64,000 bases of DNA from an uncultured Neomegalonema sp. (GTDB lineage: Bacteria > Pseudomonadota > Alphaproteobacteria > Rhodobacterales > Rhodobacteraceae). Of this stretch, positions 11,800 through 33,932 are shown piece after piece. Each line of letters opens with the position of its first letter. The stretch's first letter is position 1. The stretch lies in assembly GCA_937911325.1 (NCBI GenBank), contig CALDSD010000015.1, forward strand, positions 1 through 64,000. Reading direction: 5' to 3'. A program made the translations under genes and the position numbers. Under the pieces are notes generated by a model. It searched no databases. It was not told the DNA's origin and saw only the letters and a program-made list of their open reading frames with translations.

Positions 11800-11874
11800 T
11801 GGCGCTCCGTACGGGACTCGAACCCGTGTTTCCGCCTTGAGAGGGCAGCGTCCTGACCGCTAGACGAACGGAGC
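11800..11874 (-). tRNA. tRNA-Glu (anticodon CTC)
   Basis: A 75-base cloverleaf. The acceptor stem GCTCCGT pairs perfectly with ACGGAGC, the discriminator is G and CCA is encoded. The anticodon arm CTGCC/GGCGG carries loop CTCTCAA with anticodon CTC at 11839-11841. The T arm holds the expected GTTCGAGTC. This is an ordinary, functional-looking tRNA, a useful contrast with the odd array at 32829-33248. Confidence 0.96.
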
Positions 11875-32584: not shown

Positions 32585-32828
32585 GTCCGCCCCCTCCTGT
32601 CGCCCCTCCAGCGCAATGATGAGGACGCTAGACGATTCGAGCGACAGCGGTGAGACGATAACTTTCGCAGCGCCACTTGACGGAGGACTGTGGCGCCCCC
32701 ATCTGCGAGCGCTCGAACGAAACGCCGGACAGGAGGGCGGCATATGCGACTAAAACGTTTTGACGACGCTCTTCTAAGAGCGGTGCTCGCGGCCTAGCGC
32801 AACGCTCGGTCCGCGACGCGATTGCGCC

Positions 32829-32903
32829 GGATCGGTAGCTCAGAGGCAGAGCAGCGGTCTCTTAAACCGCAGGTCGAGATTTCGAAATTCTCCCGATCCT
32901 CCA
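32829..32903 (+). tRNA. tRNA-like gene, anticodon CTT (Lys), T-stem defect
   Basis: A 75-base cloverleaf. The acceptor GGATCGG pairs fully with CCGATCC, the D arm is GCTC/GAGC, and stem GCGGT/ACCGC carries loop CTCTTAA, the normal Lys loop. Two features are odd. The nearly universal G53-C61 pair of the T arm is T-T. The discriminator base is T, not the A usual for Lys. CCA is encoded. It is the first element of a tight plus-strand array. Confidence 0.8.
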
Positions 32904-32948
32904 GCGCGTTCAACGATCGCAGCATGATCTGTGTCTGGATCGTCTGTT

Positions 32949-33023
32949 TCCTGGGTAGCTCAGTGGTAGAGCGGCCGTTTGAAGGGCGGCGCGGCGGTGG
33001 TTCGAGCCCATCCCCAGGAGCCA
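32949..33023 (+). tRNA. tRNA-like gene, anticodon GAA (Phe), atypical
   Basis: A 75-base cloverleaf. The acceptor TCCTGGG pairs fully with CCCAGGA, the D arm is GCTC/GAGC, the T arm GGTGG/CCATC has one G-T pair, and CCA is encoded. The anticodon loop TTGAAGG reads GAA but has G at positions 37 and 38, where Phe tRNAs have A37. U1-A72 and discriminator G73 also differ from bacterial tRNA-Phe. It folds well, but its identity is doubtful. Confidence 0.8.
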
Positions 33024-33032
33024 AATTTCTAC

Positions 33033-33107
33033 GGACGTGCCCCCGTCTGGCGACGGGACCCGGTTGTCGACCGGTTGAGGCGAGTTCGATTCTCGTCACG
33101 TCCGCCA
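33033..33107 (+). tRNA. tRNA-like gene, anticodon GTC (Asp), unusual D arm
   Basis: A 75-base element with a perfect 7-bp acceptor GGACGTG/CACGTCC, discriminator G and encoded CCA. The T arm GCGAG/CTCGT holds TTCGATT. The anticodon loop TTGTCGA lies on a stem with four good pairs. Position 8, almost always T, is C, and the D region forms a shifted 5-bp stem (CCCGT/ACGGG) with a 6-base loop. The 3' half looks like a real tRNA and the D side does not. Confidence 0.7.
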
Positions 33108-33108
33108 A

Positions 33109-33155
33109 CCTTCCGTAAGCCTGCGACCGGAGTTCGAGACTCTGAGGGAGGTCCA
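33109..33155 (+). other. Shrunken tRNA-like element: acceptor stem plus T arm only
   Basis: CCTTCC (33109-33114) pairs with GGGAGG (33146-33151), followed by T and CCA at 33153-33155. A T arm CGGAG/CTCTG with loop TTCGAGA lies at 33128-33144. Only twelve bases (33116-33127) stand where D and anticodon arms should be. It follows the previous CCA by one base. It looks like a tRNA that lost both arms, or a minihelix. Confidence 0.5.
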
Positions 33156-33171
33156 GCATCGCTGAACATGT

Positions 33172-33248
33172 GCGCCTGTGGCCCAACTGGCAGAGGCGGC
33201 CGCCTCAGAAGCGGCAGGTTGGAGGTTCGACTCCTCCCAGGCGCACCA
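33172..33248 (+). tRNA. tRNA-like gene, anticodon CAG (Leu), short variable loop
   Basis: A 77-base cloverleaf with a perfect acceptor GCGCCTG/CAGGCGC, discriminator A, encoded CCA, anticodon stem GCCGC/GCGGC with loop CTCAGAA and T arm GGAGG/CCTCC. The anticodon CAG means Leu. However, the variable region is only five bases, while bacterial tRNA-Leu is class II with a long arm, and position 37 is A rather than G. It ends the array. Confidence 0.82.
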
Positions 33249-33383
33249 CAAGCTCTGGCGGAGCAATCGCCACGCCTCACCGCCAAAGAAGACCGCACAC
33301 TGCGGCGCAGAGTGAGCGCATGGCGGCTGTTCCGACCTGAACGATCGCCGTGCAGCCGCATTTCGCAGCGACATGTACGTTCT

Positions 33384-33932
33384 CTAGCGAGTGGCCGAAC
33401 CTGTCGTTGGCACGACGGTGGGAAGCACAAAACTTGGCTGAGGCGCGACCGTCGCCGTGCCCTCGACAGTGCTGGTCGAACCGACGTCCCGCACCACAGA
33501 CAGCGTCTCGCGATAAAGGCTGAGGTACTCTTCTTTGTTCAGTTTGTAGTTGAAGGCGGCTTCACAAAGCCGAAACATCAGCTCGCGGGTGATCAGCACA
33601 GACGGCGCGCGCCCTCCAAGCGGGCTTTCTTGCGCGCCGACGCCTGCGGCGGCGCCCGTGCTAACATTCACGAGTCCGATATCGAGCGCGATTTCACGAA
33701 CCTCGTCGTATGTCGCGTCGGGTTCTGGACCCGTGCACATGATGATTTGATCCGAAGTGTCGCGTTCGAGGAAGTTGACCGCATAAAGAGCGGCCGTGCT
33801 GACGCCAACGGTGCCCACAGGTGATTCAATCAGCTGTGGGTTGGGAATCTGACCGGTCGCACAGCCGCTCGACAGCATTGCGACCAAGACAACTACGGAT
33901 ATCTTGGCGCGCCCGCGTCGATGGTCGGCCAT
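33384..33932 (-). CDS. Putative lipoprotein of unknown function
   Basis: A 182-residue protein starting at the ATG at 33932, after AGGGGTGAG. The signal peptide ends in the lipobox MLSSGC. The mature part contains IMCTGPEPDA and, about 45 residues on, LMFRLCEAAFNYKLNKEEY. The same spacing of these two Cys-bearing blocks recurs in the lipoprotein at 62215-63174 (VCAEPSPDA and [14 protein letters not shown]), so they look like one family. The tail is rich in Thr, Val and Pro. It lies opposite to and right of the tRNA-like array. The function is unknown. Confidence 0.8.
   Translation of the reverse strand: MADHRRGRAKISVVVLVAMLSSGCATGQIPNPQLIESPVGTVGVSTAALYAVNFLERDTSDQIIMCTGPEPDATYDEVREIALDIGLVNVSTGAAAGVGAQESPLGGRAPSVLITRELMFRLCEAAFNYKLNKEEYLSLYRETLSVVRDVGSTSTVEGTATVAPQPSFVLPTVVPTTGSATR

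Follow-up and report, generated by a model that had tools for sequence, protein, structure and literature searches.

The cluster of tRNA genes at 32829-33248 of the 64,000-nucleotide stretch of Neomegalonema sp. DNA analysed here (the window) is probably, with a likelihood of roughly 70% judged from sequence, a small part of a mobile tRNA array such as large phages and large plasmids carry, placed between two orphan ORFs in an otherwise ordinary chromosome. It looks like a small transplanted array piece and not like broken host genes, since its oddities match those of phage and plasmid tRNA sets. The claim of transfer rests on tRNA similarity and orphan flanks, as the features tested beside the cluster included no integrase, no phage structural family and no clear boundary repeat. 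On this reading the cluster would have come in by horizontal transfer, while most of the source array either did not come along or has been lost. Codon supply has been the long-standing explanation of phage and plasmid tRNAs, and recent work points to escape from tRNA-cutting defences; the cluster indicates that altered tRNAs of the array type can come to lie in a cellular chromosome and are then reported by gene finders as ordinary tRNAs. It is already known that tRNAs form dense clusters on phages, plasmids and chromosomes, and the possibly new point is that mobile arrays often carry a tRNA-Leu without a variable arm.

Table 1. Coordinates of the cluster, its flanks and other tRNA features referred to in the text (window positions unless a locus is given).
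Feature	Position	Strand	Description and support
tRNA-Glu(CTC), standard	11800-11874		ARAGORN, same window
Orphan ORF, 379 aa	31604..32743	-	Left flank of cluster
tRNA-Lys(CTT)	32829..32903	+	Class I, U53-U61 mismatch, T73, encoded CCA; ARAGORN; Rfam 58.9 bits
tRNA-Phe(GAA)	32949..33023	+	U1-A72, G37, G38, G73, encoded CCA; ARAGORN; Rfam 54.0 bits
tRNA-Asp(GTC)	33033..33107	+	C8, displaced D stem, G73, encoded CCA; ARAGORN; Rfam 36.0 bits
Mini-tRNA	33109..33155	+	Acceptor stem 6/7 pairs and T arm, T73-CCA; stem scan
tRNA-Leu(CAG)	33172..33248	+	Class I, 77 nt, A37, A73, encoded CCA; ARAGORN; Rfam 59.8 bits
Orphan ORF, 200 aa	33384..33986	-	Right flank of cluster
Array tRNAs with ATCG T loop	L088:3815-3890, L089:3499-3727, L093:4626-4699

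ARAGORN, Rfam and a check of the stems agree on four plus-strand cloverleaves with perfect 7-bp acceptor stems and encoded CCA, as an earlier note made from the sequence alone had described them. An Infernal-type check, which that note had proposed, places all four above the 29-bit gathering cut-off of RF00005; the Lys, Phe and Leu scores come from a search of the window and the Asp-GTC score of 36.0 bits from a search of the whole genome, the Asp gene being absent from the hits of the search run on the window alone. Acceptor pairing is 7/7 in each gene, and the T stem has 5/5 pairs in the Phe, Asp and Leu genes and 4/5 in the Lys gene, where U53 faces U61; the discriminators are T, G, G and A in the order Lys, Phe, Asp and Leu. 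The departures from the usual pattern that had been pointed out are all present in the sequence, namely the missing G53-C61 and discriminator T of the CTT gene, the G37/G38, U1-A72 and G73 of the GAA gene, the C8 and shifted D stem of the GTC gene, and the class I form, with a 5-nt variable region, and A37 of the CAG gene. The spacers of 45, 9, 1 and 16 bases are also correct if the fifth element is taken as 33109-33155, and ARAGORN finds a Glu-CTC gene at the place given for a standard tRNA-Glu. Allo-tRNAs are tRNAs with an 8/4 or 9/3 acceptor/T-stem arrangement, and this class is ruled out by the 7-bp acceptor and 5-position T stem of all four genes (with one T-stem mismatch, in Lys). A tRNA array unit is defined, in the part of PMC5966550 available (citing Tran et al. 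2016), by at least 20 tRNA genes at a density of at least 2 tRNAs per kb. With 4 tRNAs in 420 bases the cluster has that density, but its 4 tRNAs and 47-nt fragment fall short of that number. The array units of Mycobacterium, which contain at least 20 tRNAs by definition, are likewise dense tRNA clusters found on chromosomes, phages and plasmids, according to the accessible parts of PMC5966550 and PMC12803027, and the array tRNAs of M. avium are described there as typically differing from the chromosomal copies in the D, anticodon and variable arms (PMC12803027).

DNA matches of the cluster lie in phage tRNA arrays of 93 records and in 5 plasmids, and none of the matches listed spans more than one tRNA. 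Six of the matched array stretches contain 32, 26, 23, 21, 32 and 27 tRNAs by ARAGORN, the first with a tmRNA-like call in addition. In an identity comparison set of 2263 tRNAs, the best identities within the own chromosome were 75% for Lys, 74% for Phe, 68% for Asp and 74% for Leu. The higher best identities to array tRNAs are partly expected, since the array set is far larger than the own set of about 40 host tRNAs, and for that reason more weight is given to shared features than to identities. On such features the pointer to mobile elements in the earlier note was well placed, as every oddity is also seen in tRNA arrays of phages or plasmids. Its statement that each gene breaks a near-universal rule is right when chromosomal tRNAs are the reference; among mobile arrays, class I Leu and G37 Phe are common and the Lys T arm is rare but recurrent.

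Two phages illustrate the likeness. Erythrobacter phage vB_EliS-L02 (OL955261.1) resembles the cluster in three genes: its Asp-GTC is 81% identical and shares the acceptor stem, its Lys-CTT carries T73, and its Leu-CAG is class I (79 nt) and has A37. Unlike the cluster it has a full-length array, on a phage, its Asp D arm differs in detail and its Lys gene lacks the U53-U61 T arm. ARAGORN gives 32 tRNAs and a tmRNA-like gene in this stretch (L088:528-7086), where the record annotates no RNA gene. Mesorhizobium phage Cp1R7A-A1 (MT188704.1) has class I Leu-CAG and Leu-CAA genes and an Asp gene with a CCC/GGG D arm similar to that of the cluster, but its 26 tRNAs extend across about 7 kb, and the D arm of its Leu-CAG gene looks like that of ordinary tRNA-Leu, unlike that of the cluster Leu gene. 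Several array tRNAs in two phages and one plasmid have T loops that begin with ATCG and not TTCG, as if the 54-58 pair were altered (Table 1).

The window Leu-CAG gene is 77 nt long and lacks the class II variable arm, whereas the host's five other A73 Leu genes measure 85-87 nt; it has the A73 by which bacterial tRNA-Leu is recognised. Its nearest tRNAs are a class I Leu-GAG (86%) and a class I Leu-CAG (85%), both of genome contigs, and its class I relatives lie at 82-86%. A pattern for class I Leu (CTCAGA...CCA with a variable region of 4-5 nt) matched 93 viral and 114 genome stretches. Class I Leu-CAG is defined here by ARAGORN length alone, as a CAG tRNA no longer than 80 nt. It was confirmed in 80 of the 93 viral stretches and in 84 of the 113 genome stretches examined (113 of 114), and a further tRNA was present in the same stretch in 80/80 of the viral and 79/84 of the genome cases. 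Among class I Leu genes with encoded CCA, A73 is retained in 122/122 viral and in 134/138 genome-contig genes. A73 is a Leu determinant, and its retention suggests that these genes are probably still leucine tRNAs. The pattern with A37 matched 93 viral stretches versus 9 for its G37 version, the 9 being pattern matches alone.

Since this first sample had been selected on class I Leu itself, a second viral sample was drawn on Asp-GTC (at least 120 stretches, 111 of 120 with tRNAs); the two viral samples have 1 of 949 distinct tRNAs in common. A Leu tRNA is present in 45 of the Asp-drawn stretches and a class I Leu in 13 of these 45, and class I makes up 15 of the 62 distinct Leu tRNAs of this sample, with no CAG anticodon among the 15. 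The form is sporadic within the family. A looser class I pattern applied to 198 family genomes, each of a different genus and with the own genome included, gave 10 places in 9 genomes; of these, ARAGORN backs three (one in the relative G004, the others in the own genome) and reads two further places as class II Leu and Tyr. By exact pattern the A73-type class I Leu-CAG occurs in 2/198 genomes, the own and one other, counted in this way because the second own place, on contig C92, has U73. No description of class I tRNA-Leu in arrays or phages was found in the literature covered, mostly non-subscription and including the accessible parts of PMC6409571 and PMC10264068. The step from class II to class I tRNA-Leu with A73 kept is a recurrent, easily scored mark with which the idea of escape from defences can be tested, and it raises the question of how LeuRS accepts such tRNAs.

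Closest to the Lys gene, at 83%, is a viral Val whose T arm is the same, followed by a phage Lys-CTT (81%). Besides one viral Val gene, the U53-U61 T arm is found again in Roseobacter phage DSS3P8 and in plasmids of Pseudarthrobacter and Variovorax. The tRNA-Lys genes of DSS3P8 and of the two plasmids have the GATTTCRAAATTC T arm with U53-U61 in common with the window gene, but carry discriminator A and diverged acceptor stems; the Pseudarthrobacter gene does not encode CCA, and the Variovorax gene is a Lys-TTT. This T arm is a rare array form, given that the Lys genes of the Leu-drawn samples (37 viral, 35 on genome contigs) all lack it, and a sequence pattern for it had no match in viral contigs. 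The Phe gene is closest to array-type Phe-GAA genes, one on a genome contig (L290, 84%) and one viral (L186, 82%) that also has G37. G37 was found in 17/31 Phe-GAA genes of the Asp-drawn viral sample, in 15/29 of the Leu-drawn viral sample and in 24/31 of genome stretches with at least 5 tRNAs, compared with 0/18 chromosomal Phe genes, all of which have A37 (one own gene and 17 from relatives, retrieved because they resemble the cluster). In third place for the GAA gene comes a chromosomal Asn from a relative of the same class (81%), and since this Asn also has U1-A72 and G73, the body of the gene could still be derived from Asn. For the Asp gene, the nearest are an Asp of genome contig L247 (83%) and that of phage vB_EliS-L02 (81%).

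The stems of the window genes differ from those of phage relatives by compensatory changes that keep the pairing. The Lys gene differs from its DSS3P8 counterpart at 16/75 positions, with compensatory pairs 4-68, 28-40, 30-38 and 49-63 and with pair 2-70 broken in the phage gene. Between the Asp gene and that of phage vB_EliS-L02, 14/75 positions differ, compensatory changes are found at 10-25 and 51-61, and pair 13-22 is broken in the phage gene. The oddities of the four genes do not appear to be simple decay, each of them recurring in phage or plasmid tRNA arrays.

A related reading, which is possible but doubtful, is that the piece of mobile array is a dead relic, unexpressed and drifting. 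It would account for the survival of four genes and one truncated fifth, for the lack of any promoter-like or plus-strand terminator-like site found in 32600-33450, and for the duplication by three of the four genes of isoacceptors that the host already has. It is opposed by the four perfect acceptor stems, by T stems that are intact save for a U-U that relatives have as well, and by the compensatory stem differences, though these possibly predate the transfer. The disrupted stems of a tRNA pseudogene are not seen in the four cloverleaves, and the fifth element alone lacks two arms; the suggestion that the genes are decaying copies therefore lacks support for the four and may fit the fifth.

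The fifth element consists of a 47-nt acceptor and T-arm minihelix from which the D and anticodon arms are absent. No 5' acceptor strand other than the 46/47-nt one was found for it at lengths up to 99 nt, and it is most simply an internal deletion product. An acceptor/T-arm scan of the arrays gave 226 hits, 207 overlapping ARAGORN genes and 19 not, versus 0 hits in one mononucleotide shuffle. Two places, L171:1038-1085 and L241:4979-5024, hold possible acceptor and T-arm mini-tRNAs of 46-48 nt with T73-CCA, built like 33109-33155. Among three of the 19, alternative forms exist: a 71-nt form with equal acceptor pairing in L171, a form of 46 or 60 nt in L241 and one of 42 nt in L235. Several of the remaining non-overlapping hits look by eye like pieces of missed full tRNAs. 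Given these alternative forms and likely missed tRNAs, a class of mini-tRNAs in arrays has too little support to be claimed.

The surroundings of the cluster look chromosomal, with a glycerate kinase, an RhlE-type helicase, FdhD and, at 40-46 kb, pheS/pheT domains; the neighbours tested are housekeeping genes and orphans. The left-flank ORF had no match in Pfam, PHROGs, NCBIfam, PADLOC or PDB, was found in 0/25 relatives, and was rejected as a phage protein for want of any relative in viral contigs or phages. Its two plasmid matches are weak and partial (29% over 39% and 33% over 23% of the query), and the Salipiger plasmid match sits among ordinary genes. The right-flank ORF had no match in Pfam, PHROGs, NCBIfam or PADLOC, in 25 relatives or in a plasmid search. 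An empty-site comparison through the glycerate kinase neighbour reached only 720 bases downstream in the best relative (G008) before the contig end, and the flanking proteins had no match in those 720 bases. A proposed search for the array in related genomes and phages succeeded tRNA by tRNA in phages and plasmids, but the set as a whole was not recovered in relatives. A conserved family gene set was rejected: a 551-base query for the cluster gave only single tRNA-sized pieces in 23/40 relatives, the best being 57 bases at 84% in G004.

The host assembly (3.87 Mb, 102 contigs, 98.4% complete) contains 49 RF00005 matches, and the anticodons of the other host tRNAs were read from 40 fetched stretches and three contig-end pieces. 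Further Phe-GAA, Asp-GTC and class II Leu-CAG genes are present elsewhere in the assembly, by which the possibility that the window genes are sole isoacceptors of the normal set was rejected for three of the four; no second Lys-CTT was found in the 98.4%-complete assembly. Extra decoding capacity for the cell, as a codon or stress reserve and notably for AAG through Lys-CTT, is an improbable purpose of the genes. Lys-TTT can read AAG by wobble, the remaining three anticodons duplicate ones already present, and relatives apparently manage without Lys-CTT: the exact pattern of standard Lys-CTT had no match in 23/24 same-family relatives (some incomplete), with G004 as the exception, and was matched in 13/16 other same-class relatives. 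The failure to find another Lys-CTT in the assembly, or by exact pattern in those 23 same-family relatives, can be cited in favour of such a reserve, as can the 26-gene tRNA operon of an Anabaena megaplasmid, which is repressed in standard culture and activated otherwise according to the portion of PMC10272220 at hand. As a separate observation, a 37-bit tRNA match in the own genome (C23:2395-2477, L040) is class II-like and without CCA, and is reported by neither ARAGORN nor cmscan.

The second place of the looser Leu pattern in the own genome belongs to a tRNA-like pair at C92:14429-14576 (L072:9929-10079), upstream of a Band_7 (SPFH) gene. Close Band_7 orthologues (E below 1e-120 among 100 family genomes) were found in 7 genera, own included, and an upstream tRNA-like element is scored by Rfam in 7/7 (own and L503-L508), RF00005 being the sole Rfam family above cut-off there. 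ARAGORN calls an abutting pair in 4/7 genera, one gene in 2 and none in 1. The anticodons or loop sizes mostly differ, with a TTT element common to two genera, and a conserved block with CTAGCGG and CGTATGCCAGGGCC precedes the elements in four genera (L504, L505, L506, L508). The C92 pair was rejected as a second array of the same kind, being syntenic with these changing elements and without array features; the Band_7-upstream elements are a phenomenon separate from the window cluster. It is very unlikely that the window genes are locally arisen chromosomal tRNA-like genes akin to this pair, with a non-decoding role. The presence of such elements in the same genome and in all seven genera is consistent with that origin, as is the resemblance of the GAA gene to a relative's chromosomal Asn. 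The window genes have array features, however (A73 class I Leu, U53-U61 Lys, G37 Phe and the Asp D arm), and in the Band_7 pair the CAG gene differs by carrying U73 and G37.

For the piece of mobile array as the preferred reading, resistance to tRNA-cutting defences is the leading candidate function. On a mobile element, spare and structurally altered tRNAs would sustain translation when host defences cut the standard tRNAs, and the lost Leu variable arm and the Phe G37 would be ways of hiding from tRNA-cutting nucleases. This account is put forward tentatively, at somewhat under even odds. A Leu without its variable arm would fit evasion of nucleases that read this arm; no nuclease that cuts the tRNA-Leu variable arm was found in the literature covered. 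The wider proposition, that arrays in many phyla carry A73 Leu without a variable arm, G37 Phe and the rarer U53-U61 Lys as disguises against nucleases and that this set is kept here, is rather unlikely as a whole. Such disguises against variable-arm or anticodon-loop nucleases may be convergent or shared. In the present host, the genes may be expressed as extra tRNAs, with Lys-CTT contributing an isoacceptor for which no other gene was found in the assembly, or they may be silent passengers.

Published work, as far as the accessible parts of the sources go, provides precedents. The target of both retron-Eco7 and Septu is tRNA-Tyr, with Septu acting at its variable loop, and phage tRNAs rescue the phages (PMC11555353, PMC13096335), the rescue being by phage tRNA-Tyr and tRNA-Lys (PMC11555353). 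The tRNA-Tyr of T5 is described as resistant to retron-Eco7 through a different variable loop (PMC13096335), and anticodon-loop mutations have been argued to evade tRNA-targeting defences (PMC10264068). The tRNA-Tyr of phage T6 is reported to be cut by Septu as well, and that of E. coli to rescue phages when a strong phage promoter drives its expression (PMC11555353, PMC13096335), so that supply alone may suffice without altered structure. For the M. avium array tRNAs, the choice between a translation and an antidefence role was left undecided by the authors in the part of PMC12803027 available.

Nuclease decoys and imported tRNAs, two roles that the earlier note had raised, are both possible. 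Its further suggestion that the genes supply aminoacyl donors to a non-ribosomal pathway has the general precedent raised there and nothing else in its favour; no tRNA-dependent ligase, Fem-type or cyclodipeptide synthase family was present among the neighbours tested, which makes the suggestion highly improbable.

Two further observations concern tRNA structure in arrays. At L073:9976-10187 (G004 C400), a class I Leu-CAG lies next to another class I tRNA, whose anticodon TCA reads UGA and which is listed as SeC; the pair is seen again in L271, probably the same contig. A tRNA-Tyr of at most 80 nt was found in viral arrays in 5/35 cases of the Leu-drawn and 2/32 of the Asp-drawn sample, which hints at an occasional loss of the Tyr variable arm.
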